A DNA stretch of 64,000 nucleotides, from assembly GCA_009760885.1 (NCBI GenBank), contig CM019715.1:21844003-21908002 (forward strand), read 5' to 3'. The notes under the pieces were generated by a model that was not told the DNA's origin, did no database searches, and saw only the letters and a program-made list of their open reading frames with translations. Both the position numbers and the translations under genes were made by a program. The first letter of the stretch is position 1. Every line of letters begins with the position of its first letter. Shown one piece after another: positions 19,001-63,564 of the stretch. The stretch comes from Achatina immaculata. Its lineage: Eukaryota; Mollusca; Gastropoda; Stylommatophora; Achatinidae.

Positions 19001-22000
19001 AGATAGAGAAAATATTAATGTATCACCTTATTATTCATCCTTTTCTTCACTTTTCAACATAATCTCCAATTCTCTGCATACATTTTTCCCGTTGCTCTGC
19101 AAGTTTGAAAATACCCTCCCAGTAGAATTCCGTTCCAGTTAACCAACGGCACAGACACACTGCTCTCTGGGCTTTCTCTCCTGTATCGCAGTGATGGCCT
19201 CGCATTTGTTCTTTCACAAAACCGAAAAGATAGTAATCACTGGGTGAAAGGTCAGGCTATAGGCAGGGTGTGGAAGAATTTCCCAACCTATTTTCTGAAT
19301 ATCCTCAGTTGTCTGGCAAGCAGAGTTTTTCTCACAGCTTTGTAATCTTCAGTCAGCAAACGTGGGACATAGTGGGCACAAACTTTTCTGTAGCCTAGGG
19401 TTTCAATCATTTCCTGTACTGCATTGTGTCCTATTCCAAGATTTACAGCAATTTCAGATATTGTGACACGTCTGTCTTCTTTAATGATGTCGTCAACCCT
19501 TTCCACGATGCGTTCAGTGGATGCAGCTCGAGGGCAACCGCTGCAAGGCATATCTTGGATGCTCGTGTTTCCATCTTTGAAATCTTTCACCCACCTCCTA
19601 ACACTGCTAGCACCCATACACACATCTTCACAAGCAAGCTGAAGTCTTTGGTGAATTTCAGCAGCGGGGATTTACTCTTTAATGAAGAACTCAATAACAG
19701 CAGGTTGATGAAATGAAACTTCAGCACCCGCCATTTTGTTTCTGCTCCATGTGGTCATGTGACACATGATGGTGACATCATATGACCTCTACATTAAGTG
19801 CAAAGGATGTAGATAAAGGTGATACATTTATATTTTCTCAATCTATAAATTCTGATGTTTTAAAAAATGTTTGCTCACAACTTTCGATATGACCCTCATA
19901 CATAACATGCCATCATCCTAATCTGATGGCATTTCCCTTCAGAAAATTTGGCTCCTACAACCCTTCAATTTGCTCCATATTAAATTTAAAAAAATTTTTT
20001 TGTTAGCCTTATCATTACACTTATCATTACTTTAGGTTTAGTATGATCTCCCATTGTTAATTTGTTTAATTGTTTTTTTTTAATTTGTTTTATTAATTTT
20101 TAACATTTTCTCTGTTTGACAAATGATTTTGTTTATAGTATTATTTGCCTTAAAATTTTGGCAAAAGCAACATACAAAGAACTAGACAACAAAGTAAAAA
20201 GTTCAGCTTGAAGAGACAAAAGAGAATATATAGACAATATGGCAAAGGAAGCAGAAAATGCAGCATCAACGGGAGACAGCAAAACTCTATATAACATACA
20301 GAAGAAGCTAACAAGTGCTATTACCTCCAGAGAAAGACCAGTCTTTAGCAAAACAGGCTATTAACACCAAATAAAGACCAAAAGCAAAGATGGGCTGAAC
20401 ACATCTAAGAAATACTTAATCGACCACACCCAAATGAATTAATAAATCTTGAAACCGCTTTACCAGTTCCACAACTAAATGTCAACATAGATGAAGTTAC
20501 ACTGAATGAAATTGAAACAGCAGTGAATCTAATGGCTAACAACAAAGCTGCAGGTGAAGATGAAATAACAGTCTTCTTCTTCTTCTTCTTCTTCTTCGCT
20601 CGCTTCTACCACCAAGATCGCCCCATGATCCTGCTGATTTTACTCCGGTGGCTCTCGCGATAGTCTCATTTAGGATGGAGGCTCAGAGCATTGTGGGGCT
20701 TGGGCCTATATTCTTGGTGGGTCACAGAGGCGGCATTGCCTGACACTGTGGTTTTCTTTGCACCAGTTTAGTCTAGAGTTGGACTTTCTCACGGAAAACC
20801 TTGATGTGGTTTAGATAATAATATATCCCTGTCGGGTGAGAAGTGGTTGCCTATCTAGACTGCACTAGTCCAGTGTCTCCAACTTCAGCATTTTGTGGTC
20901 GTGACTGCTACCCTTCCTGATAGTGACCAGGACGGAGCTTTTGTCGAGGAGGACGAATCCTCGCCACTATTGAGTTTCATCCCTGGGTTAAGCTGGTTTA
21001 GGTGTATTATCATAGTGTGGGTGTATATAGGATGTGATCGGCCTCTAGAGCAAATTTGCCATAGTATGTGTAGCCCTCACCGCAAGTCTACTGGCCATAC
21101 TGAATAAACTTCACTTAATCCTTTCCATCACTTTTTCCACAGCGGCGCCATGCGGCAACACTAATTGCATTTTTCTTCAATGGCTGGGAGGAATTTCACC
21201 CCATGTGCGGCAGCCGAAGAATCTTGCCAGCAGAGTCTTAGTTTAACCCCTGGGTTAAGCCATTTTAGGCATTTGAGCCAGTATAAGTGTATATAGAACG
21301 TGGCTGGCCTCTAGAGCAGAGGTGCTGTGATATGTGTCCTATTCCGCAAGACCGCAAGACTTCTGGCTACTTCACTTAATCCTTTCCATCACCTTTTCCA
21401 CGATGGCGCTGTGTGGCAACCCTAATCACATTTTTCTTCATTGGCCAGGATGAGTTTCACCTTACACAAAGCAGCTGAAGAATCTTGCCAGCTGTGAGCA
21501 GAAGCTTTCTTTCTCCTAGATGAGCTACCAAACAAGATATCTGGTTTTCAGGTGCCAAATATTTGCCTTTCACCCCTTCTCCTGTCAGTTCCTCCACGAG
21601 AAGGCCGGGAGCTGGACTTGGACTATCAGAGGCTATTTGAGACACATGCCATGGAGACATTTAATTGGAGTGGAGAGCGTATCCCTCACCCCACCTCCAG
21701 CTATTACAGTCCTTAGAACAGAAATAACAGTTGAAATGTTAAAAGCTATTAACAGTGACAACATGAGCCAACTACAGAGAATGTTTAATAAAATTTGGAA
21801 AGAAGCAAAGGTCCCTTCTAAATGGAAACAAGGAATCACTGTTAAAATACCAAAAAAAAATAAAAAAGCAACCTCAGTGATTGCAATAACTGGAGGGGTG
21901 TAACCTTACTATCAGTTGTGTCAAAGGTGGTTTGTAAAGTGATTCTGAGTATAATTAAGGATGTAGTGGATACTGCATTGAGAGAAGAACAAGCAGGATT

Positions 22001-25000: not shown

Positions 25001-28000
25001 ATATGTGATTGATCTGTTTAATTTTTGCTAATTTTAAAAAAATTAATTTTTGGGTGCAACTTTCTGGATGCATGGATGCTGTGGCATGTGGTGAAGTATG
25101 TGTGGGGCTGTCCTGATTGCAATGATGCCGGAGTCTGATTTTGAACCTTTGAACCAATGATATGATATTTTATAACTGTAAATAAGAGACATAAACAGAG
25201 GGCAATGTTTCAGAAGACAGTATAAAGCTAACTGAAGTCATCGTAAAACAACCCCATAAAGCCAAATATCAGGGAACGTTACTGCCTCTTAGTGGAAAAA
25301 CCATCTTATAAAAGAAAGAATAGAACAGCTAAAGCAGCAATAATTGTCTGGAACAAATCTTTATGTAAATAACTTGTTAATTTTTTTAGGTCGTTCTGCT
25401 TCCTTCCCCGTTGATTTCTTCTGGATTGGAGCAAATGACAGACGTACTGAAGGTGGTTGGAGATGGACAGATAGATCACCTTTTGCCTTTCTCAACTGGG
25501 ATTTCAGTAAGTGAAAATAAACTCTCTTCTAGTTTAATCTGAAACAAGTTAGGCTGAAAAAAAAACTGAAGGCAAGACTGCATTTTAAAGAAAGAAATAA
25601 AGAGCATATTTTGATTCTTGTCGGCTTTCTTCGTTAAAAATGTGAGAAGATTTATTTTAGCTAAAAAATGAATTTTCAAATCATTTTGTTGACTTTTTCT
25701 GATCTTATATGACACATAAAAGAACAAATATGTTAGTAAAGAAAATTAAACAGAGAAAACTTAAGTATTTCAGACATTTTAAATGTCATGAGAATTTGGA
25801 GAAGACAGTCTTTGAATAGAGGGCTCACCTGGGCAAGAGCAGAAAAAAAGGTGAAGGACAGGCATTTGTGGAAAACCCTTGCGGAAGCCCCATGTGCCCT
25901 GAGCACTTAAGGTTCAGAGAGAGAGAGAATCTTTGAAGGGTACATAGTGGGAAAAAGAAAGTTGGGAAGACCAAGGCAAAGATTGCAACAAGACATCATT
26001 GATGATTTGCGAATAGATAAGTCAACAGCAGGGCATTTTGCCTGAGAGGCCTTCAAGAGAGCTGTTAGGGAAGCAAAGTTCCACAAGGGACATGCTAATG
26101 AATGAATATGACAAGAGTGGTTAACCCATGTCTCACATGCCAAAAGTGCCATATGGTAGATATTTTGAGCACACGGAGCTCAAAATTCCATTTTGTAAAA
26201 TAGAAAATCCAAACAAAACAAATGACATTCTGTTTATATGACAGCCATACTAACAAATGACATTCTGTTTATATGACAGCCATACTGACAAATGACATTC
26301 TGTTTATATGACAGCCATACTAACAAATAGCACTTTTTAAATAGGACAACCTGATAACAGGGATGATGCTGACTGTGCTGTGATGGTTCAGAAAAGTGGA
26401 AGATGGAATGATGTCCCTTGCCAAAACAGATATGGATATATTTGCAAGAAGAAAGGTACCACAGCCTAATCATGGTGATCATATATCTTCTTACTAGATG
26501 AATAGATCAGCATTGACTGACTGTCTTGTGGTATAGTATAAATAAGCTTAAACAGGAAGACAAAGAGGTGGTTCAGTATTTGTATAAGATTTAAGTTCTC
26601 CTTCAAGAAAGCCCCCAGAAACAACCACTATAGCACTGCCTCATGAAGATCACTGTGGCCATTGGGCAGTAAAATCTCATCAACAAGGATGGTCAGAAGA
26701 GCTAATTGCTCATGCTCGTGGCATTGGACCAAACCAAATCCCAAGGTATTTCCATGGCCTACTTCTGAGGGAGAAAGATATAACATACTGCACCCCAGTT
26801 TTGTTTTTCATTTTGTAGAACCTGACTAGGTGAAATTATTCACAAAGCCAACATTAAAGAGAATGATAAATCTTATATAAAAATTTCTTATATAACTGTC
26901 TCCTATGTCTCCTATATATATCTTATATATAACTCTCCTATATAACTGTCTCCTATATAAATCTTATATATAACTGAATGCTATATAAATCTTCAATATA
27001 AGTCTTATTTCTTAAATAAAAAAAATGATTCTTTTATATAAATCTCCTTTATAAATCTTTTACTTAGCTCTTATTTAAATGTCCTATATAACTGTCTCTT
27101 ATGTCTCCTAAATAAATCTCCTATATAACTATCTCTTATGTCTCCTAAATAAATCTCCCCTGTAACTCTCTAAGTTTAGTTAAGCCAGTTTAGTGAGCAT
27201 AACAAGAAAAACAAGACTTGCAATGATGCTACAAGAATCTACAGATCCGGTGGTACGAGAAGTGCAGCCAACACTTAGAACTGGACGAAAATGGAAAGTA
27301 GGTGAGGAAGTGACCACAGCCAGGGAAACGCAGGAGCTGAAAGAAGTAATAGGGTACACCCAGACCAACAGAAGGGGATTTGGTCATGGTGAAATCAAGT
27401 GGTGGTCAAAGGCCTCCTGCAAGGAAAGAAGGGATATGATCATCAGCGAGGTAAGGAATTCAGAGGATGACAAGCGGGTCCAGAAGGCAGTCCAACAATC
27501 ACAACAAGGGCAATGGACAACATGGGAGGAAGTCCTGCAGAGATCACTAACATGGAATGACATCTGGAAAATGGCACCCTTGAGGCTCAGCTTCATCATC
27601 AGAGCTTCTTATAACCTTCTGCCTACAGGCTCCAACCTATACAAATGGGGTGTATCAGAAGATACAAAGTGCCCTCTCTGCAACGAAAGGCAAACATTGG
27701 AACATGTGCTGTCAGCATGTAGAGTGTCTTTAGGGCAAGGACGGTACACCTGGCGGCACAACAGAGTGTTGCAGGAACTAGTAGCCATTGTAGACAGGGC
27801 AAACGATAAAGCAAATAACAGCAAAAGAGTTGAGGTCCCACCTAAATATTTCATAGGTGCTGGTACGACATCAAATATTGAAATCAGGGACATTCCCTTA
27901 CCATCACTGCTAGATGGTACAAATGATTGGGAAGTGACAGCGGACCTTCCAGAAAGACGAGAATACCCAACTGCCATTAAGAACACAGGAATGCGACCGG

Positions 28001-34000: not shown

Positions 34001-37000
34001 CATCCTTCCCGTGCCGTTAAACATCACATAGGGCTTGCAAAGTAGTTCGCCAATTTTTCCTGTCTTCAGCGAGTCTTTCAACCTCATCAAGGGATTTTAT
34101 GCCTGTTAATTTGGCCTCTCTTAACAATGACCTCTTCAGAGTTTCACGAGGTCTGCCTCATTTTCTTTGGCCTGTTGTGTTCCACTTGATAGCTTGTTTT
34201 GGGATTCTCTGATTGTTTCTTCTCATCAAGTGACCAACATATGTCCATCTCCTTTTCCTGATCACCCATGAGACTGGTTGTTGTTCAGTCATCTGTCTTA
34301 TCTCTGCATTATTCTTAAATTCGTTCCACTTGATGCCGAGTATTTTCCTTAGGCATTTATTTTCAAAAGAGTCTAATTTCTTGTCTATTTCTTTAGTTGT
34401 TTTCCAGCTTTCGCATGCATAAATGAGGGTGGATTTTACATTTGAATTGAATAGTCTTAACCTGGTTTTTGTGTTTATAACTTTTGAATTCCATATGTTC
34501 TCAAGGTTCTTGAAGATCGATGCTGCTTTTGCAATTCTGATTCTAACTTCCTTTCTAGTGTCACCATCCTGGTCTATGTAGCTGCCAAGGTATGCAGATT
34601 GATTGACTTCTTCAATATCTGTCCCTTCTATGTAATAATGAAAATTCCCCTTAATCAAAAAGGAAAAATTTTCATTATTTTTGTTTTGTCCTTGTTAATT
34701 TCAAGTCCTATTTTGCTCCTATTTTTTCTTGCATGGAGTTCACCCTGTAATTCATTCATTCCTTTGCATGTCCCTTGCGGAACTTTGCCTCCCAAACAGC
34801 ACTCCTGTAGGCCTCTCGGTTGTGAGTTCCTATTTGACTTTCCATGATTGCTGCTTGGGTTTCTTGGTATGTTTCCAGAAGGTAGTTTACCATTGCTTTC
34901 CTTCCGGGCAGTGACTGTACTAGTCAGTGATCGTAGCCATTGTCCCTACATTGAGATCATCTGCCTACCATCATAGAATGGTGACCATAACCAACATTAT
35001 CTGTCAGCTGCTCTCCCATTCCATTCACCACCTGCTCCCATGGCTTCACGTCACCCTGATCGGGGGGCTATACGGGTACTCCACCTTGCCCACCCTGTAA
35101 TTACACGTGTTAATTTTGTACATGCTTCTTTGTGACCTTGTGTTAGGACAACTCTGCAGTCATTATGGTGACTCACATATTCAAACAGGGTGCCTGCATC
35201 AAATTTTGTGTGAAGCTCAGCAAATCTGCTCCCGAGACTTCAGGCTTTTGGCAAACATTCTTCTTTTTCTATGAGCAGGTGCATAATTCGGCAGTTTTTC
35301 GAGCCATTAAGGATCATTGGTCAGACAAGACAGGTTTCCATTCCTCTCTTTCTTAGGTCTGACACAAGTTTTTGAGTGGCATGTGTGTTTCAGGGCTGGT
35401 CAAGTGTCAGGGCCGGGCGAGTGTCAAGATGATGAGCATTCAGGGTGACCAGAAAAAGTTAAAGAACTACTTCTGAACAATTCATCAGCTTTCTCATGTG
35501 GCAGTTTTGGAGTCTTCCAGGAGATCCTCATGGAAAACCTGAACATGCATCACACTGCTGTTAAGTTTGTCCACTGGCTCTTAAGACTTGATCAGAAACA
35601 GCAGCATCTTGATGAGTGCTCACACCTCCCTCAAGTGGATACCTTGTTGACAGGAACCAACATGGTCTTGTTCCTCAAAATGAAAGGAGCACTGCTTCAA
35701 CAGCATAGATGAAATCCAAGTGGAAGTGCAGATAGTATTGGACAGCCTTCAGGAAAAGGACATCCATGATGCTTCTGAGAATAGAAGAGGTGCTGGGGTC
35801 ACTGTATACCTTCCCAAAGGGACTATTTTGAAGATGAAAATGACCAGATTTAAATAATTCTGTACTCTTTCTTTTAGGACCAGTCTGTGAACTTTCCAAT
35901 ACCACTTCATATATAATGTCTGCTCTCAGTGCATGACCATAAGACCATGTTAAGAATCATGAACGGTTATGACACATGCTGTATGTTTTTATGATTAAAA
36001 AATGGTGAATTCATTCCCCTTCAAATACAACTTCTGAACAGGATTTCTTAGTGAAAGCCATATACAGTTTCTGTATTACACAGCTGAAGATTATAATGTT
36101 TTTCTGCAGTAACAGGGATGGAAAGTTGAGGAGGAAGAGGTTATATATATATATATATAATTTTAATGCAGAAATGAGTTGGATGGATGGGTGGGGAGTG
36201 AAGTGGTATGACCAGAAAGGGTTGAAAAAACTGCTATTAAACTGTTTATAGGGAGTTTTTTATGGTCACAGTTCTGGAACAGTTGTTGTAGTCTTCCTGA
36301 TATTACAAGAGTCTTTCTACAGTTGGGTGACTAATAACAACTGAGAGCATTTACTCTGGTTGAATGTTTTGGTAAACATTCCATTAAAGATAAACTTAAC
36401 ATGTCTAAACATGACCTGACACAACACTTGTGGCTGCTAAATGTTTAATGATGCTGATTTCTAAGGGTTCTATTGGCTATGGAGCTCAGTGCTACAGCTA
36501 CATTAATACTTTAAGATCATTTAGTGATGCCCAAAGAGACTGCAGGACCAGATCCAAAAACCTGGGAAATCTAGCCACAATTGACTCTGGGTAAGTAACT
36601 CATTTATTCTTTTAGTAGATTGGTTCCTGTTTGAGTTGGAGCCTGGAGAGGTGTAGTACTGTCGCAGCTTCTGGAGAGGTGTCTTACTGCTGTAGTATTA
36701 TCACAGCTTCTGGAGAGGTGTCTTACTGCTGTAGTACTGTCACAGCTTCTGGAGAGGTGTCTTACTGCTGTAGTACTGTCACAGCTTCTGGAGAGGTGTC
36801 TTACTGCTATAGTATTATCACAGCTTCTGGAGAGGTGTCTTACTGCTGTAGTACTGTCATACCTCTTGGAGAGGTGTCTTACTGCTGTAGTACTGTCACA
36901 GCTTCTGGAGAGGTGTCTTACTGCTATAGTATTATCACAGCTTCTGGAGAGGTGTCTTACTGCTGTAGTACTGTCGCAGCTTCTGGAGAGGTGTCTTACT

Positions 37001-40000
37001 GCTGTAGTACTGTCACAGCTTCTGGAGAGGTGTCTTACTGCTGTAGTACTGTCATAACTCTTGGAGAGGTGTCTTACTGCTGTAGTACTGTCATAACTCT
37101 TGGAGAGGTGTCTTACTGCTGTAGTACTGTCATAACTCTTGGAGAGGTGTCTTACTGCTGTAGTACTGTCATAACTCTTGGAGAGGTGTCTTACTGCTGT
37201 AGTACTGTCATAACTCTTGGAGAAGTGTCTTACTGCTGTAGTACTGTCACAGCTTCTGGAGAGGTGTCTTACTGCTATAGTATTATCACAGCTTCTGGAG
37301 AGGTGTCTTACTGCTGTAGTACTGTCGCAGCTTCTGGAGAGGTTTCTTACTGCTATAGTATTATCACAGCTTCTGGAGAGGTGTCGTACTGCTGTAGTAC
37401 TCTCACAGATCCTCAGACTCAGGTTCTAAAACATCAAGTCTTGTCTCTTTGTTCAACATTTTGCACATAAATTCACAAATGCATGAAAATGATGGCTAAA
37501 GAAAAATAAAAAGCAAGATGTAGCTACATTGTAGATTATCTTTCCTTTGTTTCCCATTTTGTTTTTGTTTTTTTTGTTGCAAATGAATAGTAAAAAGTGA
37601 ATGCATATGCTGCAGTAAATAAATATGTGCATATTCCGTGATCAAAATAGGTTATTTTTTAAAAAATAATTCCAAATGTTCTTAAAGTTTATTTGTACTT
37701 TTTTTTTTAGATTTTGTAAAATATACAAATAAGAGCTTTTTTTTTCCATTATTTTGTTTTTAAGCCATCTACAGAGCTTCATAGCGGCCGAGTTAACCAC
37801 ACAACTCAATCCTGTCTACTGGATTGGTTTGTCACAGAATAATGATCTTTACAGATGGCAGTCCGGCTGGCCAGTTTCATTTACTTATTGGAATCAGAAC
37901 CATACAGGTAAGAAATTGTCATTAGAACAAGGCTTTATTAAGGTTTTCTATTTTTTTGCATTGGCAAAATTGCTTGAAACCAAATTGTATAGTGCTTTAA
38001 ACTTCTGTGCTTTATTTTATTTACTAATTTGGCCTCTCTTAACAGTGGTTGAAAACTTAGCAAGGTAGAAAATGTCATTACAAAAATAAAATGGTTTGCA
38101 AGGTGGATTGGGTGGTCAGTCATTCATTTATTAGATGTCATGCCAGTTGATTCTGACAGTGACACTTCTCTGTTTTGTGGCAGTCTTTGGTGCCTCCAGT
38201 CAAATCTGATGCCTTCCTCTTCACGTGCCACTTGTTCAGATATTTCTCTCTTAGTCTCTTTCTCTTCCTTTCTCCTTTGCATGATCATACTTCTCAATTA
38301 CTCTTCATCTTTGATTATTTATTTTGACTGAGATGATGTTGTGTGATCATGTTGAGTGGCATCTTTTCTTTCCATCTTATTCTGCCCCTATTTATTTTTA
38401 TTTTTCATGCTCACATTCATTCATATATAATTATTGTAGAAAATTCATAACTGAACATGCATAAAATAGTCTGTTTGAAACTTCTGAGCTCGTGAGAACA
38501 GGAATTGTTTATGACTTTTAAATGGTACGGAAGAGTGTTCCAAAAAGGAGCAGTTGAGTAACAGGGTTTTACTTGTTTAGATTAAGTCCAGGTAGGATTG
38601 GTTGTAAATTTTTTTAACATTAACTGAGCTCAGAATGGAAAAATACATGTAGAAGGGACAGCTGTTGAAGAAGTCAACCAGTTTGAATACATGGGCAGCT
38701 ACATAGACTAGGATGATGACACCAGAAAGGAAGTTAGAATTAGAATTGCAAAAGCAGCATTGATCTTCAAGAATCTTGAGAACATATGGCATTCAAAAGT
38801 TATAAGCCAAAAAAACCAAGTTAAGACTGTTCAATCCAAATGTAATATCTACCCTCATTTATGCATGTGAAAGCTGGAAAACAACTAAAGAAATTAGACT
38901 CTTTTGAAAATAAATGCCTAAGGAAAATACTCGGCATCAAGTGGAACAAATTCAAGAACAATGCAGAGATAAGACAGATGACTGAACAACAGCCAGTCTC
39001 ATGGGTGATCAGGAAAAGAAGATGGACATATGTTGGTTATGTGATGAGAAGAAACAATCAGAGAATCCAAAAACAAGCTATTAAGTAGAACACAACAGGC
39101 CGAGGAAAAAGAGGTCAGCCACATGAAATTCTAAAGAGGACATTATTAAGAGAGGCCAAATTAATAGGCATAAAATCCCTTGATGAGGTTGAAAAGCTCA
39201 CTGAAAACAGGAAAAACTGGCGAACTACCTTGCGAGCCCAATGTGACATTTAACAGCATGGGAAGGATATAAGATAAGAACTCAGTTGGATTTAAGCAGC
39301 ATTCACACATAATACATGGTTACATAGGACAATTTTGTTATAACTTGGCCTTGTTAAATGTCAAGCATTCATTTAGGATGGAGTTCTGTGTGTCAGTATC
39401 AGTGAAGAAAAATAAAAGACAATACTTGATTTTATTATGAGTAAAGTCTTTATGTGTTAAAATGCCAAGAATGACTTTTCATGTTGAGCAATTGAGCAGT
39501 AGTCTGTGTTTGTATTTATAATATGTATTTACTTGAGCCAGGGCAAGTGAAGTACTGGATTTCAAAGTTAAGTTCCACAAGAAGTGTTGATGAGTATGTA
39601 ATCCTTATAGTTTATATTGACTTGCATAATCATTTGTAAAAATAAAAATTACATTGAAGTTTTTGTAATTTCCAGTTACTAGGATTTTGTTACTCGTGGT
39701 TTGCTTGGAGCAAAGATGAATACTCTCGAGCAGTGTTTCTCAAACTTTTTTCAATCACAGCACACTATTTCACCATGTGGAGTTTTGCAGGACATTCAGA
39801 CAGTGGTGACTAGATCCATAAACTCTGGCTTTCGCAGCACAGTGATGGAACACAGCACATCTTTTGAAGAGCCCTGCTTGAGAGGGTTGATAAAGTTTTC
39901 AGGGCCAAGTAGACAGAGCTCATGAAGATCCTGCTCAACATTCTTTTGGTGCCCACAGAAACAATCTTTGGCACTTAATCAGTGTGATTAATGAAAGGTG

Positions 40001-43000
40001 AATTAATCAGAGTGATTAATGAAAGGTGAATTTACAGGTTTCTTTTTGTGGTTGATCCTGTGTAGAATCTTGGAACTATGTCAGAAATTCAAGAGACTTG
40101 TTTTTAATACACTGCCATCACACTCAGTACTAGTGTTTCATGTTACTGACTGCAAAGAACTGAAGCTGGCATTTCAAAGGAGACATTTCTTCTTCTTCTG
40201 CATTGTTTTATATTTTCAGTCATCTAGACAAGGAGATAGGTCATCTTTATTGATTCCATCATCATCAGGAGTTCATCATGTATGGCCCACAGTTTTCCAT
40301 CCATGTTGTTTTCCTGGAGCCAGCTTCTAATCATTTAGTTCCTGTATGGAGAACAGGTTTGATTCAGAATCTTTATAATACAATAGAATCATAACAGTGC
40401 AGAAAAAAACAAAACAACGGTCTGGGCTTTCTTTCAACAGGCAATGAAAGATGGACATGTGGGGCCATGCTATCTCCATCTGGATTGTGGACAAACTATC
40501 CATGCAACAAGAACTTCTCCTACATCTGTGAGTCCCCTCGTCCAGGTTTTACAACTGCACCATCACCTACCACCAGACCGCTGCCATGTCCTGCTGGATG
40601 GTCAGGCTACACAAATTACTGCTATCGAGTGAGTTTAAATGAGTGTATAGTTACAGATAACACCTGTAGCGTCCTTCATGGCTTTATAACACATGAATAG
40701 TTTTTGGGTATAAAACAGACATTAAGTATAGATAGAATCATTTGGAGTCATCATCATCATCATTGTCATGAAATGCCACACACTGACAGATCTTGGCAGT
40801 TACTTCTTCTCCACTCTCTAGTGTACTTGCCATTTCATTTTTTTCATCTTTTGCAACAGGTCAACCTGTCATTCATCTCAAGATTTTTCTTGCTTTATTT
40901 TTTTTCCCTGAGTTTTTCCATGATTGTTTGATTGTGAAATTTCTGTATTCTCATGGAGCATACAAAAGGCTGTGATCTTTTTTTTCTTTTTCTTGTTGTT
41001 CTAAATAGTCTACAGTGTCCTACAAACTTCTCTGAAACCTTAAAAGGATATGCTCAAAACCTCACTCAGAGCCTTTGGGATAGACATAAACTCTTGGGAG
41101 GATATAGCACAAGTCCGCCCATCATGGAGGGCTTTAACCACCCTGGGTGCTCAGAGAGCAGAGCGCTCAAGAATTGAAAGTGGCCAACAGAAACGTGCAA
41201 TGCGAAAAGCCAAGGCAGCACAGGCACCTGCAACTGAATCTGGACATAATGTTCCATGTGTGGCAAAACTTTTAGAGCTCATATAGGGCTAGTTGGTCAC
41301 ACACAGACACACCTCTCCTTACTCTGACTAAGATGAATCTGTAGTCATCATCGAAGATGATGGACGCACAACAACAACAACAACAGTAAATTAACATATT
41401 CTAATATATAAAGATTATAATTGTATTTAGGGACTATCTACTACATAGAGTATGTTTAAATATTTGTAATATGCAAATAAATTGACTACAGGCTGGAAGT
41501 TGTAAAGTTTGATTTGATAAAATTCATAAAAATAATGTAAGTAAAGAGATTTTAACATCTAAATAGTTATCAAAAATTCATGTTAAACAAAGTTGAGAAA
41601 ATGCAGTAATCCTAGTCATATTATGAGTTTGAAAATAAATTTATTATAATGTAGCCTGACCAGCAGAATAGGAATAGATTTGTTTCCATGGTGGTGGAGC
41701 ATCTGAGAAGCCTACTTCTTAAGTTCATTCTGGGAATTTAAGAAAGTAGCTCACTACCAGTGTTCTTCTTCTTCTGTGTTCAATTTCGTATGCTCAGCTT
41801 TATAAACAAAGAGTCGGGTTTCCCCCATGAATCCTGCTGTAAGCAGGAGGTCTTCATAGGAACCCCAGAATTTCTCCTCCATACTTCTCTCTCAGGGCCA
41901 TACCTTGGCTCTGAAGTTTCTGTATATGGTGCAGGTCTGTAGTATGTGTTGAAGAGTCTGGGGGCAGATTTGCCACATCCATTGGGCTGTTGCTTGTTAA
42001 GCGTTAAGTCTGCTTTTTTTTTTAAGAGGACAAAAACAACAGGGTCCACAAATAACAAGATGTGGACCATACCCCAGCATTCAGTGTGCAGGGTAGGCCT
42101 CAAACATCTTGTTCATTCCAAAACGATCAAAGTGTAGATACTACAGAGCACAGAACTACACTTTGATTTTTTTTTTTTTTTAAATCAGACTCAGTGACTG
42201 GTCTGTCAAGACCTTACACTGTGCAAACTAGGAAACTCGTATGAGTGGTCCCTGTTGCTGTCATCATGTTGTTCCCTTTGTTTTATTTTTTTTTATATTT
42301 TTTTTTTTTTTAACCGGGAACTTTTTTTTTTTTAACAAAATTCAAATGAAAAGGGGTTTTAATATTTCTCTAATTGTCAGAGATTCTTTTTATACTCTCT
42401 CTCTCCCTTTTTCACTCACTCTCTCCCATAGTCATCTTTCTCTCTGTTGATGTACATAATCCTTTCTTGGCAAAGCCTTCTCTTTCACTCTTGGGATGTA
42501 CATGAGTTTTTGAATTTAAATTTTACTCTCTCTTACTTCTTTCTTTCTCCTTCTCTCTCATTCCATTATTTTGCTCACTCTTTGCTGGACCAGTCCCGAA
42601 AAAGTGGCAGTACTAAGTGTGCAGAAATGAAAATGAGCCTTATTTCTGCACGTCCACACCAAATACCTGAAATCTGCGAGCAGGACCAGTAACCTGGTGT
42701 GTGTGTCCACCTGAGTTTTAGGGATTGTGTTCAACATTATGGCTCTATAGATGTCTGCTTGTTGTGCCGTGTATGTTTCTATTGTATTCTGTATTGTTCT
42801 TATGGCGGTTGCCACTGTTTTGCATTCATAGAAAATGTGTTCTTCTGTTTCTAGTACGTTCCTCCTGCACATGTAACATCGTCTTTTGTGTCTGTGTTTT
42901 TCTCCGTGTCTCGTGGGTGTCATATTGTATATGAGCCTGAAAGTGATTTCTCGAGCTTTTGGTGTAATGTTTTTGAGATGGAGGTTTTTGAAAGTGTCGG

Positions 43001-46000
43001 TGTAGTCTAATATGGGGTATCTAAGTCCTCTCTTGATCCTAAGGTGTAATGGTGGTGCTTGCTCTCTGACCAAATGTTTGTATATGTGGTTTGTTTTGTG
43101 TTGGATGAGTGTCTCGTGTCCTTGAATTGCTTGTATGCAATTTTTGTAGAATGGTGGTAGTGTGCCAAAATGGTGTGCCTGCGAGTTGTTTGGTCTGACT
43201 AGGTTTGATAGTCTCAGTCCTATGTAGTAGTGAGCTAGCGGGTGTTGGTTTGGGTGTTTGATGATGCGGCCTACATGGCTTATTCTGAGCGCTTGTATTT
43301 TTGTCTGTATGTCTTGCAAGGCAATCCCTCCATGTATTTTATCCTGTATGAGGGTTTTATGTTGTATGCTGTGTATAGTGTTTGTGAAGATAAAGTTTCT
43401 GATTTGTTTGTTTATTTCTCTGACTGTCCGTTTCGGAAGTTCTAGTACTGTGGCGGTGTATATTATTTTTGGTATTATGTATGTGTTTACTATGATGCTT
43501 CGTCCAAAAATCGTTGCTGTTTTGTATTTGTATCGTTGTAACATGTTTGTAATGTTCGTTTTGAGGTTGTCCCATGTGGGTTTGTGTATTTTATTTGGGT
43601 GTGATAGGAAAGTAAAGCCATACACGTGGATGTTGTCTGTGCATGTGAGACGAAAGGGGAAGTCCCTTTTATCTCACCATTTGCCTAAGCCCATGACGAC
43701 TGACTTTTGTATGTTGAGTTTTGCTCCGCTACCTTTGCCAAACTCTGCGAAAGTGTCTAATATGTGAGTTATTGAGCTGTCTGTTGTTGGAAGGAAGGTC
43801 GTGTCGTCCGCATACGCGAGCAACTTCCTCTCTCCCCTGCCAGGTACGAAAATTCCCTTTATTGTTGTGTCTTGTCTGATTTTCTCTAGAAGTGGTTCTA
43901 GAGTGAGTATGTACAGTAAAGGAGAGAGGGGGCAGCCCTGTCTCACTGATCTGGTTAGCCTGAAAGTCTCTGTAAGCGTATGGTTTACTAAGACTTTGCT
44001 CTCAGGTTTGGAGTAGAGAATGTAAATCCAGTCTCTGAAATAATCCCCTATATTGCAGTGGAGTAATGTCTTATGTAGGTATTCGTGTGACACTCTATCA
44101 AATGCTTTCTCTTGATCTAAGGAAAGAACTGACGACTGGCAGTTCTTCTGGTGTGTGTAATATATGATGTCTCGTATGAAATGTGTGTGCTGGTGTATGT
44201 TTCTATCCTCTACACTGCATTGTTGGTCTTCATGTATAAGTTTGTGCATGAATGGTTTGAGCTTGTTTGTAAGCGCTTTTGTGAGGATTTTGTAATCTAC
44301 ATTTAGCAGCGATATGGGTCTGTAGTTTTTGAGTTGTGTTCTGTCTGCGTTGCCCTTAGGTATGAGAATGATGTATGATAGGTTTTGACTGGGCGGGAGT
44401 TGTTTGTTTTGGAAAGCTTCTGTGAACACTTGTAAGAGAAGAGGACCCAAGAGTGGAAAAAGGTGTTTGTAGAATTCTGCTGTGAGACCGTCTGGCCCTG
44501 GTGACTTGTTTTCTTTCATTGTTTGTAGTGCCTGCATCAGGTTGTCTAGTGTTAGTGGTGTGTCTAGTGCTTTTTTGTCCGAGTCCGTGAGTTGTTTAGT
44601 GTACTACATGTATTTATCCTGTATGTGTGCTTGTGTTTCTTCCTCGGTGTACAGTTGTTTATAGTATTCTCTAATGGCTTTTACTATGTTTGTATTGTCT
44701 GTTTGTCTGTTCCCTGTGGTATCTATTATCTCTCTTATCTGTCTGCTTCGTTGTATATTTTGCTCTATGCTCAAGTACTGCTTGGTAGGTATTTCTTGTG
44801 TAATGGTATTGAGTCTTGTTCGTAGGAGTGCGCCTTGAAATCTAGGTTGTCTGTATTTATCTAATTCTTCTTGTAATGTGAGTAAATGTGGTGAGGTTTT
44901 GTCCATCTGTTTTGTTAGTTTGATTGCCTCTTCTAATATTTTCTCTTGTCTTAGCCTTTCTCTGTGTATTTGTGTTAAGAGCATTTGTGCTTTGTCTTTT
45001 ATTGCATGTTTTAAATTCTCCCAGTGTTGTTGGATGTTGTGTGTGGGTGTGTTGTTCGTGAAGGTGTGTATCAGTTGCGCCATGTTTTCCATAAATTGTT
45101 TGTTTTGGAGGAGTGTGTTGTTAAATTTCCAGTGTGGTGATCGTTTTGAAGGTGTAGCTGTAGATATTGTGTTCATTGTTGCTATGACTGCCTTATGGTC
45201 TGTGAAAGCTAAAGTACTATGAAGATGTCTGGCCTGTGCTATGTAGCACGTACTTGGTACATAAATCCTGTCCAACCTATATCCTCTGTTGTGTCTGTGG
45301 CTCTCATGAGTGATCTCTCTGCCTTTAGGGTGTGTGTATCTGTATGTATCTACTAAATCATATGTGTTTATTATGTCTTGTAAACAATTCATATGATGTA
45401 AATCATATGTGGAGGTTCTAGTTAGACTTCCTATAGTGTCTAACTCTGATGTTATACCATTGAAATCTCCTCCTAAGATAATGTTGTGTCCTCTGTATCT
45501 GTGGCTGAGTAGAGATTCTAAATCTTCATAGAAGTCGGGCTGGTGACTGCGGTTGGGTGGTGCGTGTATGTTAACTATAGTGTATGTGTGTGAGTTGTTT
45601 TTAACCTCACATATCGCAATTCTCCCTCTACTATCTCTATTCGTTTTAAATACAGACACACACGCAGCACAAATCACAACACAACTAGGCTTCAGACATT
45701 CATGTTTTAGCTTGGCCATTCACGACTCAGGATCGGGGGCAGCAGTAATACAGACATCAGACAGGTGGGAGGAACTACACTTTGATCTTAGCCAAAAGGC
45801 TGGATTGTGCTGTTAATGTTCATTTAGTCTTGTATGGACACCTGTGGGTATCTGTTGTTTATCCTCTGCCCTCAGTTGTTAGGTATTTCCTTTTTTACTT
45901 TTGTTTTCACTTCCTTTTGCAATATTCTGTGCCTGAATTGTTTTTTTTTTCTTTGTGCCTTCCTTTGCTAGTCTGTCAGCTGTTTCATTTCATGCAGTGC

Positions 46001-49000
46001 CACAGTGTGCAGGAATCTACTGTAACACTGTCCTGTTTGTCATGGAGAGCTGATTTATTTTCTTCATTACATCCCTTGTTAGGTTCTTTCTAGGTGGTTT
46101 ACTCCCAGTCTGAAATGATGGATTTCTTACAAGATCTTTGCCTTGATATTTGTTATCATAAGCTTCACATTCACAATCACAAGGAGATACAGTAATTGTA
46201 TGAGTGCTAAAGTGGACTTAACTGCAGATGCTTCTGTTCTAAAACAGTGTCAAGTATCTGAGACCAGAAAATGAGACAGAAATGTCTGCTTTTGAGGGGC
46301 TGCATTTAAAAAAAGAACAAATGTATCCACACTACAAGAGTGAAGGTTGGCTAGTAAAGAAGATTAAACAGAGAAAACTGAAATATTTTGGACATATTAA
46401 ATGTCATGAGAATTTAGAGAAGACAGTCTTGGAAGGCTACATAATTGGAAAAAAGAAAGAGAGGAAGACCAGTGCGAAAATGGTTGCAAGACATCGTTGA
46501 TGATCTGCGAATGGATGCATCAGCAGCAGGGCATCTTGCTTACAACTGAGAGAACTACAGGAGAGCTGTTAGGAACGCAAAGTTCTGCAAGGAACATGCA
46601 AATGACTGACTGATTTCAGGTTTGTAAAATGTGATTAAAAAATTAATTTATAAAAGCAGTTGATTGGCTATTATGAAGATGGTTGCTCTTTCCCTTGCCA
46701 GGTTTTTAAACCAAATGCAACAAACGCTCTGACATGGGGTGAAGCCAGAGACTTTTGTGCCAGCCAAGCTAATAGAGGATCTCTGATCACAGTCAATGAC
46801 AATGCCACTCAATCATGGTTGCTTGCCAATATCATAAAGTAAGTTCTTGTCAGTTAACCTTAATCAGTTGTAAAGCCTTATTTGTGATGTTTCACATGCA
46901 TAATTGCTTGTTTTGTTTTTCTTTGTTGTAGTGGTTTTCAAAATGTCAATCATTTAGGCAACTGAAGGAATGAGAAGATGGTCAGCAGACTACTTAACCA
47001 TTATAGAATGCAAGTCAGTATAGCTGTGTTTAGAAGAACGAACAGTTAAGTTTTAAAATGTTCCGACTAATAAAAGCAAAAGTTGGAACGGCTTTATTAA
47101 TTAACAATTAAACAAGTTATTATTATTATAGAACAGTTAATAATACATGTGATCCAATATATTTGTCATGAAATGAATAGATCGAGTTTCTCAGAGTTCA
47201 AATTTCACAGCTGCGGGTGTTAAAGAACAGCAGAATTTGTATTTAATTTTCTAAACTGTACGCTTTTGATGAAGAGCATAAAACTTTTTAATTACATCAT
47301 AAGAAGGCAGAAGACAGAAGCTTGTCAATCACTGGAAAACATCAAAGGAAAATCTTACTTCCTTCCCATGCCGTTAAACGTCACATAGGACTTGCGTGGT
47401 AGCTTGCCAAGATTTCCTGTTCTCACTGATCTTTTCAACCTTATCAAGGGATTTTATGCCTATTAGTTTGGCCTCTCTTAACAGTGTCCTCTTTAGAGTT
47501 TCATGTGGTTGTCCTGTTCTTCTTCACCCTGTTGTGTTTCACTTGATAGCTTGTTTTGGGATTCTGTTTCTTCTCATCACGTGACCAACATATGTTCATC
47601 TCCTTTATCTGATCACACATGAGAAAGGAAAACAAAGGGAAAAAAAGAGAAAATATTTGTATGAACTGACCAAATGGTGCAGGAATATAAAAGGCATCCA
47701 ATCTGAGCATAAAATACCAAGAACTGCACAAAATGAAGGATGATAATTGTCAAAGAGTATTGACATCATACGTGATGATTAAGACCTGTATGATGCCAAG
47801 ACTTAATATTATGCCAAGCATCTTTTAACAGACCTAAACACCAAATTATGTATCATATCACCACTTTTAGGAACTACATAGTTTGAGATGTTTGTAAAAA
47901 GATATGGTTTAAAATATTTGTAGACCTTCAAACTGTTTAAAATTAAATACATCAATGAATACTATGTGTTAATTTTGTAAATTTTCTGTTTTCTCTTTAA
48001 ATGTTTTTTTTATAAAGGTTTTCACTTGTGTAATCTTTGTACATATTTTTTTTAAATAGTTTTAATGCTTCATTGTATGATTTTAGAACCTCTAATGCAA
48101 GTGGACATTTCTGGATTGGGCTAAATGACCGAGACTCGGAATCAGGTCAGTACATTTTTATTCTTTTGGTGAAAAAGCACTCTCGAGTTCCGTGCGTGGG
48201 GAGAAAGGCTTTCGCTCCTTTCTCAGACGGCGAGAGTTAAGGTGTTTCGATGCAAAGTGAGTGGTTTGCCCGTCGAGTGAAGCCTATAAACGGCTAGCCA
48301 GCCAAGTTCATGCTAACGCATCTGTGGTATACTACGGTTTTGTCAGCTGATGGTCTCGAAATTGGCCCATCTCTCACAAAGAGTATTGGGTCTGCAGTAT
48401 GTAATGTGCGTTGGTTGTCGATGCTGGGCTTTCTTCTCGTTCGTTAGAGCAGAGAGAGCTGGCTGCTGCCGGTTAAAGGAAATGAAATGCCACTGGGATT
48501 GAAAAGGATCCGCTGTGAGCAGAGCGCTGTCTCCCTTGCCCTGCGTCGGTCTGTCAGCAGATATCTGAATAAGGTTCGGTGAAGAAAGCTATCTGGTTGA
48601 TCCTGCCAGTCACTGCTGGCAAGATTCTTCTGCTGCCATACGTGGAGTGGGGCTCCTCTCAGCCAGTGAAGAAAGGTGCAAATGGGGTTGCTGTGCGGCA
48701 CCACTGTGGAAAAGGTGAAAGAAAGGATTAAGCAAAGTAAACAGTAGTCAAATCATGGCACCTCTGGTCTGGAGGTCGGCCACGTCCTGTGTGAATGGGC
48801 GAAATGCCTGAAATGGCTTAACCCAGAGGTTAAGACACTGCTGGCAAGATTCTTGGATGCCGCCCATGGAGTGAAACTCCTCCCAGCCGATGAAGAAAAT
48901 GCAAAGAAGAAATTAGGGTTGCTGTGCTGCGACGATGTGAAAAGGTGATGGAAAGGATAAAATGAAGCTTAGTCAGTATGTCCAGTGGTCTTGCAGCGAG

Positions 49001-52000
49001 AGCTACTCATATCACGGCACCTCTACTCTATAGGCCGGCCACGTCTGATATACACCCATACTGGGGAAATATGCCTAAACCGGCTTAAACCAGGGGTGAA
49101 ACTTGATGGCTACTTATATCACAGTACCTCCGCTCTAGAGGTCAGTCACGTCCTAAACACGCCCATTCATTCATTCATTCATTCCTTTGCATGTCCCTTG
49201 CGGAACTTCGCCTCCCAAACAGCACTCCTGTAGGCCTCTCGGTTGTGAGCAAGATGGCCTGCTGCTGCTGCATCCATTTCCAGATCATCAACGATGTCTT
49301 GCAGCCATCTTCGTTTCGGTCTTCCTCTTTTTCTTTTTCCCATTATGTATCCTTCCAATACGGTCTTCTCTAAATTATCATGACGTTTAATGTGGCCAAA
49401 ATATTTAAGTTTTCTCTCTTTAATCCTCTTTACTAGCCAGCCTTCTTCAATATTAAGCCCTTGTAGTATAGATATATTTGTTCTTTTTAGTTTGATACAG
49501 GGGTTTTCCTTGGTAACACCGTCAGGATTTTGTCCGTCATCACAATTACTAGTACCGACCTCTGCCTCACACTCTTCCCCAGTGTTAAAATTAGATCTAT
49601 CTGGCCTGGGGGACTCACCACCAGATCTTTTTCCTATTTGACTTTCCATGATTGCTGCTTGGGTTTCTTGGTATGTAAAAACACGCCCATACTGGGGTAA
49701 TATGCCTGAACCGGCTTAACCCAGGAGCGAAACTTACTAGTGGCAAGGATTCGTCCTTTTGGACAAAAGCTCCATACTGGTCACAACTAGGAAGGGTGGC
49801 AGCCATGACAACAAAATGCTGAAGTCAGAGACACTGAACCAGTGCAGTCTAGATAGGCAACCACCTCTCACCCGGCAGGGATGTATGCGTATCCTAATCA
49901 TGCTGAGGTTTTCCAGTGAGAAAGTTCAATGCTGGATTGAATGGGCAACCACCTCTCATCCGGTGGGGATACATGGGTATCCCAAAACACGTCGAGGTTC
50001 TCTGGTGAGAAAGTCCAACTCTAGGCTGGATAGGCAACCACCTCTCGCCCAGCGGGGATATACTGATGTCCAAAACATGTTGAGGTTTTCCGGTGAGAAA
50101 GTCCAACTCTAGGTTGGATGGGCAACCACCTCTCACCCAGCAGGGATATACTGATATCCAAAACACGTCGAGAAAGTCCAACTCTAGATTAAACTGATGC
50201 AATGAAACCACGATGTCACGCAATCCCGCTTCTGAGACCCACCAAGAATACGGGCTCAAGCCCTGCGATACTCTGAACCTCTTGTGTTCCTCTCGTGGAT
50301 CTCGTGTGGTCCTTTCGGGGACCACAGGGGGACCACAGGACCTATCGAGGACCACAGGAGTAAATTCAGTAGGATCACGGGGCAGTCTTGGTGGCAGAAG
50401 CGAACAAAGAAGAAGCAGAAGAAGGAGTACATTTTGATTGTTAGAAAAAGCTACCACAGATAACAGCTATGTGAAAACTGTCGGTATAGATAATTTTTTT
50501 TTAGCCAGGGCTGTAATCACAAGTAACAACTAATAATAGCAACAAGGAGAACTTGTGTTATAAAACTGATTGATTGCAGTGTGAAATATTAACCAGGAGT
50601 TTTAAATTTCATATATTTTAAGAATCAAAACTTCAGTTTAATTTGACTCCATTAGGATTTGTGCTGATTGTACTTACTCAGTTTTTTTTTTTGTGATCTT
50701 GCTATTTCTAATGTCTGTTATCTCATGACATGTCCAAATAATTTAATGGTCTTTTCTTTATGGTTTCATTTGAGTTTTGAAATTTTTTGAGAATTTATTA
50801 ATTTTTTTTTTAATGGCTGTCCAGAGCAAAAAAAAAGTAAAGGTGGCCCTTTCATACCACTGAAACACCTTAGAGATAAAATGTTAAGTGCATTAGTTTC
50901 TTTTATTTGTGAACACACTAGAAGGTGGCGTGGTCAGCATCACACCTGGATGGCTTTCCTTCCTCAGTTCTAGAAGGATTGAGGTACCCATTTCTAAAGC
51001 TGGGTGTTTGTGGCATCTCTGGCCATATTCAGATCACTGATCTGTCCAAAACCCCACCAGTGGTCCATTTTATGGATCATTGCCTGTCCCAAGTCAGGAA
51101 AAAGGGGGAGGGTTGGCTTAAGGCCAGTAACCTTATCCTATAAAAAGAACTTTGCTACAGAAATGCCAAAAAGAGACTCAAGAGATATTTCGGCCCTGGG
51201 GGAGGACGGACCTCCAGCTGGAGGAAGCATGAAGCCGGACAGTGAAAGCCAGGGAAACCAGGAAGCTGTCAGATCAACAACTGCCATCTCCACCAGGACC
51301 ACCATTATTATAGGATCATGGAATGTTAGAACTATGTTTGAAGCAGGGAAATCAATGCAGGTTGCAGCGGAAATGAGGAAATACAACATCACCATCCTGG
51401 GAATCAGCGAAACAAGATGGACTGGAACTGGGCAAACAAGGATTAGCACGGGAGAGCTTTTGTTGTACTCAGGACATGAGGAGGACACCGCACCACACAC
51501 GTATGGGGTGGCCTGATGCTGTCTAAGACAACTCAGGGAGTGCTAATTGGATGGGAGGCGCATGGCCCACGGACTATTAAAGCCACTTTCAAAACCCAAA
51601 AGAGAAGGATAAATATGGATGTCATTCAGTGTTATGCACCAACAAATGAAAGCAGCGATGGTACAAAGGAGGAATTCTATGAGAGATTGCTGGGTACTGT
51701 GCAGAGTCGTCCAGAGAGGAACATGGTTATCGCCATGGGTGATTTCAATGCCAAGATCAGAAGTGACAACAGGGGATACGAAGATATCATGGGGCAGCAG
51801 GGATTGGGTGTAATGAATGACAACAGAGAGAGATTTGCTGACTTTTGTGCCACAAGCAATTTGGTCATTGGAGGGAGTTTCTTCCATCATAAAAGAATAC
51901 ACAAGGTTACATGGGTTTCTCTGGATCAGGTAACAGAAAATCAGATTGACCATATATGCATTGGGAAGAAATACAGAAGATCTCTTCAGGACGTGAGGGG

Positions 52001-62736: not shown

Positions 62737-63343
62737 TCATTTGGCACCAAGAAGACCATGTCAAGTTTCAGTTACCCAGAATGAATGGGCACTAAGAAGA
62801 CCATGTCAAGTTTCAGTTACCCAGAATGAATGGGCACCAAGAAGACCACGTCAAGTTTTAGTTACCAAGAATGAATGGGCACCAATAAGACCATGTCAAG
62901 TTTTAGTTACCCAGAATGAATGGGCACCAAGAAGACCATGTCAAGTTTTAGTTACCAAGAATGAATGGGCACCAATAAGACCATGTCAAGTTTTAGTTAC
63001 CCAGAATGAATGGGCACCAAGAAGACCATTTCAAGTTTCAGTTACCCAGAATGAATGGTCACCAATAAGACCATGTCAAGTTTCAGTTGCCCAGAATGAA
63101 TGGGCACCAAGAAGACCATGTCAAGTTTCAGTTACCCAGAATGAATGGGCACCAATAAGACTATGTCAAGTTTCAGTTGCCCAGAATGAATGGGCACCAA
63201 GAAGACCATGCCAAGTTTCAGTTACCCAGAATGAATGGGCACTAAGAAGACCATGCCAAGTTTCAGTTACCTAGAATGAATGAGCACCAATAAGACTGTG
63301 TCAAGTTTCAGTTACCCAGAATGAATGGGCACTAAGAAGACCA
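62737..63343. repeat. 45-bp minisatellite, ~13 units
   Basis: The unit gggcaccaagaagaccatgt plus caagtttcagttacccagaatgaat in two parts is 15 codons, so a 177-codon frame stays open without coding support. Sub-patterns of aagaagacc and aataagacc alternate. Confidence 0.95.
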
Positions 63344-63564
63344 TGTCAAGTTCCACTGTTAGATAGAATGAAGGAGCACAAGAACCTGTTGTCAGAGCAC
63401 CAAGAAAACCATGTCAAGTTCCACTGTTAGCACAACAATCTATTGCTAAAGCACCTTGAAGAAGTGAAATAAGATGGTCAGTTCTGCTTCACAAGAAATG
63501 AAAACTGTACTGTCCCTCTATAACCCCCATCTTTGTTTCCATTTGTTTACCTCTCTGTAAATGG

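Follow-up and report, generated by a model that had tools for sequence, protein, structure and literature searches.

A likely retroposon of Achatina immaculata whose head ends in the first nucleotides of 18S rRNA

Chimeras of the retroelement L1 with small nuclear RNAs (snRNAs) and with 5S and 28S ribosomal RNA (rRNA) have been catalogued, with 83% of the 28S segments in sense orientation, and the terms "18S" and "45S" have no occurrences in the main text of that catalogue (PMC13174262). Template jumps of R2 in vivo to U12 snRNA and to transfer RNA (tRNA) are described for Drosophila, and the available text of the same source also describes an R2/R1 hybrid SIDE of D. immigrans that contains a spacer of the ribosomal DNA (rDNA), with 75% identity to internal transcribed spacer 1 (ITS-1) (PMC3414825). 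Full-length R1 copies of the melanogaster type that lie outside the rDNA array of Drosophila carry 7 to 28 bp of upstream 28S sequence (PMC2718515). Short interspersed nuclear elements (SINEs) with rRNA-derived parts include SINE3 (5S) and MeloSINE (3′ end of 28S) (PMC7245038). In the chimeric retrogenes of Magnaporthe, reverse transcription by a long interspersed nuclear element (LINE) fuses RNAs, and the products have terminal direct repeats of 10 to 20 bp (PMC2104539). In the available text of the open-licence literature, including PMC5014426 and PMC7650587, no SINE or chimera headed by the 18S 5′ end or by the 5′ external transcribed spacer (ETS) was found. Here we describe such a head on a likely mobile element, unit A, in 64,000 nucleotides of the genome of the gastropod Achatina immaculata (contig CM019715.1, positions 21,844,003 to 21,908,002). 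This whole 64-kb stretch is referred to as the window, and all coordinates are those of the window.

The region 47600-51000 was inspected for repeats, RNA families, tRNAs and reading frames, and for similarity to other parts of the window. Unit A spans 48159-50425 and is flanked by perfect 10-bp duplications. It consists of the following parts.

48149..48158, plus strand: AGTACATTTT, left copy of the target-site duplication around unit A
48159..48589, plus strand: head of unit A (head A), 431 bp, a probable 5′ ETS of rDNA
48590..48610, plus strand: first 20 to 21 nt of 18S rRNA (TATCTGGTTGATCCTGCCAGT), the final T possibly being part of the body
48611..49165, plus strand: 5′ part of the body, with one repeat unit from 48611, one from 48836 and part of a third
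49155..49165, plus strand: AAACACGCCCA, left copy of the duplication around the nested LINE fragment
49166..49678, minus strand: nested LINE 3′ fragment, antisense, 513 bp, with an (ATTC)n end on the plus strand
49679..49689, plus strand: AAACACGCCCA, right copy of the duplication around the nested LINE fragment
49690..50401, plus strand: 3′ part of the body, with 88-bp tandem repeats
50402..50425, plus strand: GAA-rich 3′ tail, which aligns with the tail of a second unit (unit B)
50426..50435, plus strand: AGTACATTTT, right copy of the target-site duplication around unit A

On the plus strand of the window, AGTACATTTT occurs at 48149 and 50426 only, and it does not occur on the minus strand. 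An earlier note on this DNA had described a 2.3-kb unit between these duplications, in which tandem repeats and a GAA tail come after the 18S start. The duplications are where the note placed them, and both the repeats (49852-50172, period 88, 3.6 copies) and the tail are present, but 49166-49678 is a nested LINE fragment and not body. Since this 513-bp fragment has its own 11-bp duplication, it lies outside the body proper, and the underlying unit A is about 1.74 kb long (1743 bp without the fragment and one duplication copy, that is, 2267 - 513 - 11). An alternative, looser duplication around unit A, of 17 nt with 88% identity, would place the left end of head A at 48166 instead of 48159.

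The junction between the 18S head and the body in unit A is real. The 18S match spans 48590 or 48591 to 48610, which confirms, and extends by two or three bases to the left, the 18S start that the earlier note had recognized at 48593-48610. Within the 64 kb, CTGGTTGATCCTGCCAG at 48593 is the sole match on either strand when up to 3 substitutions are allowed. As an external control, the exact 20-mer ATCTGGTTGATCCTGCCAGT was scanned against genome_contigs, a collection of 257 billion bases described as prokaryote genomes. Nine matching stretches were obtained, and all nine are 5′ ends of eukaryotic 18S, in which the Rfam SSU_rRNA_eukarya matches start at model position 1 or 4. The nine records (L016-L024) are titled as prokaryotes and contain eukaryotic 18S rDNA. 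In every control stretch the base after the 20-mer is A and the 18S goes on, whereas in the window it is C and the body repeat starts, with the departure from 18S falling immediately after ...CCAGT. This comparison indicates that 20 to 21 nt of 18S, counted from nucleotide 1, are present and end abruptly. Rfam reported no family at gathering score anywhere in the window, and a covariance model presumably needs more than the 20 nt of 18S present here. Two weak Rfam matches in 47900-50700 (searched up to an E value of 10; E values of 0.44 and 8.8) are below the gathering score and were set aside as chance.

The layout of unit A fits a chimeric retroinsertion mediated by a LINE. A single AGTACATTTT duplication encloses the head, the 18S start, the body and the GAA-rich tail. 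The 18S start directly precedes the body and is in sense, since the body and the 3′ tail share its strand. The body is present elsewhere without 18S, and a simple-repeat 3′ end, the GAA-rich tail, is found in both units. The body of unit A is likely a retroposon and the unit as a whole likely a mobile element, and the claim of the earlier note that an 18S 5′-end head is joined to a body with marks of retroposition is borne out. An origin in two successive events, with an rDNA fragment arriving first, the body inserting into it later and the rest of the 18S being lost, is highly improbable. No point in its support was found, the AGTACATTTT duplication encloses head and body together, and the 18S start before the body is not repeated after the tail.

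The second copy of the body in the window, unit B, has a different head. It lies on the minus strand as follows.

20562..20572, minus strand: ACTGTTATTTC, copy of the duplication on the 3′ side of unit B
20573..21720, minus strand: unit B, whole
20573..21497, minus strand: body of unit B and GAA tail, with two repeat units and one 88-bp unit
21498..21720, minus strand: head of unit B (head B), 223 bp
21721..21731, minus strand: ACTGTTATTTC, copy of the duplication on the 5′ side of unit B

Unit B is enclosed by the 11-bp duplication ACTGTTATTTC at 20562 and 21721. When its flanks are rejoined with one copy of the 11-mer, an open frame results that by eye resembles a LINE reverse transcriptase, which indicates that unit B, head included, is a single insertion into an older antisense LINE. 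Its alignment with the body of unit A consists of several blocks with 71 to 84% identity, running from 48610 through the tail. From 48610 on, 19 of 20 positions are equal in the two units, followed by 24 of 40 in an ungapped comparison, while upstream of the junction only 17 of 60 positions are equal. The second repeat units within A and B have this start motif too, with other sequence upstream of it. This pattern of agreement indicates that the first repeat units start at one position of the body, each with its own head. The head of unit B contains no 18S start, so that an 18S head is found on one of the two body copies in the window. Both copies sit outside rDNA, unit B within LINE-like sequence.

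We favor, with belief and doubt in about equal parts, the explanation that a LINE-type reverse transcriptase jumped from the 5′ end of the body RNA to a pre-rRNA and thereby joined the ETS/18S head to the body. The enzyme, probably supplied in trans by a LINE, would have copied the body RNA through to its 5′ end and then switched to a pre-rRNA molecule, copying its leader and the 18S start. The jump may have accompanied the insertion or slightly preceded it, and the left end of head A would correspond to the start of RNA polymerase I (Pol I) transcription or to a truncated form of the leader. End-to-end template jumping, in which the enzyme runs off the body RNA at its 5′ end, predicts such a pattern of one fixed body start and differing heads. 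As the main alternative, the body may once have resided in an 18S gene after nucleotide 20 or 21, and a Pol I RNA comprising the ETS, the 18S start and the element may have been retrotransposed. The junction coincides with the point where the body seems to begin, which fits the insertion of a full-length copy, and the R1 copies outside the rDNA of Drosophila, tagged with upstream 28S, provide a precedent (PMC2718515). Unit B, with an equal body start and no 18S in its head, would require a second, different co-transcript, and the published R1 tags are short and come from 28S, with none reported on ancestral-type R1 copies in the available text (PMC2718515). We therefore regard such a co-transcript as possible yet doubtful, and modestly prefer template jumping because a single mechanism covers both heads.

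The 431 bp directly upstream of 18S nucleotide 1 are likely the 5′ ETS, that is, the pre-rRNA leader, judging from their position and composition. No other part of the window matches 48159-48589 significantly. The composition of head A was computed over 48159-48610, with 1271 sliding windows as the reference. The G+C content of head A is 0.50 and its observed/expected (o/e) ratio of CpG is 0.84, against medians of 0.38 and 0.26 over the sliding windows. The CpG count is reached by only 2 of the 1271 sliding windows, both of which overlap head A; the CpG o/e ratio is reached by 24, and G+C content and o/e ratio together by 1. The body parts of unit A have CpG o/e ratios of 0.50 to 0.51 and a TpG/CpA excess of 1.19 to 1.26, and the body of unit B is similar (0.50 and 1.18); TpG/CpA is 1.07 in head A and 1.29 in the window. 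Since the head and the body of unit A lie under one duplication, their decay after insertion should have been equal, and the difference in CpG likely predates insertion. The higher CpG level of head A indicates that the head likely lacks the history of the body and was recently joined to it; such a contrast would be expected for a head newly copied from rDNA and a body with a past as a methylated repeat. Head B, with a CpG o/e ratio of 0.24 and a TpG/CpA ratio of 1.06, gives no comparable hint of an rDNA origin in its composition.

The 431 bp may also be something other than ETS, in which case unit A would be a three-part chimera, a short 18S 5′ fragment having been caught between unrelated sequence and the body. 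Consistent with this, head A matches the nine rDNA records of the control at the 18S start only (at most 22 nt exact, or 29 nt at 93%), although such short matches are expected for unrelated eukaryotes. A three-part chimera would need two joins instead of one, and the composition of head A suits rDNA, which makes this explanation unlikely.

The earlier note had also considered that a retroelement carries a Pol I-type leader as its own head, and this possibility is weakened by the different head in unit B at the same body nucleotide and by the CpG contrast between head and body. In this explanation, the ETS and the 18S start would be the inherited head of a propagating subfamily that is transcribed or processed like pre-rRNA. 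The one example in the window speaks for it, and the borderline similarity of the ends of heads A and B (see below) would suit a shared, fast-evolving head derived from rDNA. However, the head of one of the two body copies in the window has no 18S start, and the differing CpG state of head and body points to a recent join. The Pol I promoter lies upstream of the start site and would not be carried by a transcribed ETS. An inherited Pol I-type head is therefore unlikely. The same low probability applies to a retroelement subfamily that spreads as a pre-rRNA mimic, for example one fed by Pol I transcripts or using factors that bind the ETS and the 18S 5′ end.

Heads A and B have no similarity detectable by blastn. 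Short collinear motifs (CAGATATCT, GTTYGGT and AGAAAGCT) are nevertheless visible in the 70 nt that close each head (48540-48610 and 21498-21570), with borderline significance. With standard gap costs, shuffled sequences scored at least as high as the observed alignment in 61 of 1000 cases for the last 70 nt, 206 of 1000 for the last 120 nt and 165 of 300 for the whole heads. The corresponding counts were 25 of 1000, 296 of 1000 and 17 of 300 with gap-friendly costs and 76 of 1000, 297 of 1000 and 7 of 300 with the most gap-friendly costs. Under the gap-friendly costs, 7 of 924 other segments of the window score as high as the last 70 nt, in a test that was prompted by the sight of the sequences. 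Head B might be an old rDNA spacer too.

Several points weigh against the template jump to pre-rRNA. The jump needs an acceptor RNA that ends at 18S nucleotide 20 or 21, and we know of no processing site there. A co-transcript would predict an identical junction. The weak collinear similarity of the head ends, borderline as it is, would mean, if real, that the heads are not independent. The acceptor is taken to be pre-rRNA from the position and composition of 48159-48589, and the folding energy of the head, which is ordinary and uninformative (z scores of -0.25 for head A and 0.29 for head B), contributes nothing. Finally, a single locus with an 18S head is known in the window.

Accidents in which reverse transcriptase jumps between RNAs are known with several other RNAs, and the join to an rRNA leader and the 18S start would likely be a variant of these. 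As in unit A, the L1 chimeras fuse two RNAs at the 5′ end of a retroelement, in sense and in one insertion with a duplication, whereas unit A has the 18S 5′ end with upstream sequence and a body that is not L1 (PMC13174262). The R2 jumps also attach a foreign RNA at the 5′ junction of the element; however, R2 is autonomous and sits in 28S, and the body described here has no recognized protein and both of its copies lie outside rDNA (PMC3414825). The SIDE of D. immigrans resembles unit A, if its head is ETS, in having an rDNA spacer in a non-autonomous element, but that spacer is ITS-1 and internal, and in unit A it would be a 5′ head of ETS running into the 18S start (PMC3414825). In the R1 copies outside rDNA, as in unit A, upstream rRNA gene sequence has moved at the 5′ end of an element, with tags of 7 to 28 bp of 28S compared with the 18S 5′ end and 431 bp of upstream sequence in unit A (PMC2718515). 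SINE3 and MeloSINE share with unit A the presence of rRNA sequence within a retroelement, likely a non-autonomous one here; in the available text, SINE families are backed by a chimeric structure that is uniform from copy to copy, whereas the rRNA part here is present in one of two copies in the window (PMC7245038). The Magnaporthe retrogenes likewise combine RNA fusion with direct repeats at the ends, but they involve other RNAs, and "rRNA" has no occurrences in the main text of the source (PMC2104539).

If the head is ETS plus 18S, LINE-type machinery can attach the 5′ end of a Pol I transcript to a retroelement, in addition to the RNAs already known as partners. Since nascent pre-rRNA is nucleolar, such a chimera would imply that the element RNA and the reverse transcriptase meet pre-rRNA. 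Further copies, should there be any, would mark a path by which Pol I transcripts can supply a retroelement with a new head. One body with two heads and a fixed junction is also a small natural experiment on head acquisition.

Searches for further relatives added little. By blastn, the ends of the unit A body are matched within the window by unit B alone, and although LINE reverse transcriptases are present in the window, none has the 3′ end of the body. A pattern taken from the body has no match in genome_contigs, and the 18S-start patterns have none in viral_contigs. A 17-mer of the body was found at 15 loci in viral_contigs, none of which matches the unit beyond 28 nt, and these were rejected as chance. 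No protein product was recognized in the body of the units. The protein search with a chance frame spanning the head-body junction returned no candidate, and that with a chance frame in the body returned 13 candidates, none at an E value of 0.01. Because no protein is recognized in the units, these negative results from other collections and from protein searches say little. A scan of the window for tRNA genes with ARAGORN was negative.

The surroundings of unit A are rich in other elements. Relatives of the nested LINE fragment occur in the window at 7168-7405, 11308-11627, 25734-26107, 34750-34872, 46310-46613 and 56515-56799. Just downstream of unit A, 50998-54241 contains a LINE with the reverse transcriptase domain RVT_1, followed by a GATA-type microsatellite. 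We take this LINE to be RTE-like; among the 120 listed of 3559 matching proteins, its named relatives include proteins of Schistosoma, Ridgeia, Batillaria, Elysia and Oculina, the best of those named being in Schistosoma, a range that points to an invertebrate, possibly lophotrochozoan, genome. Another LINE, on the minus strand at 42558-45719, has Exo_endo_phos, RVT_1 and zf-RVT in three consecutive open stretches. Immediately to the left of unit A, 48085-48148 comprises a translatable stretch followed by a possible splice donor; it resembles a C-type lectin exon, and a Pfam search with this piece, 37 residues long, gave no match at an E value of 1. Long arrays of minisatellites, their units 25 to 45 bp in length, are located at 6087-6795, 7970-8765, 23984-24503, 36652-37408 and 62743-63352, and the array at 23984 has 13 copies with a 100% match.

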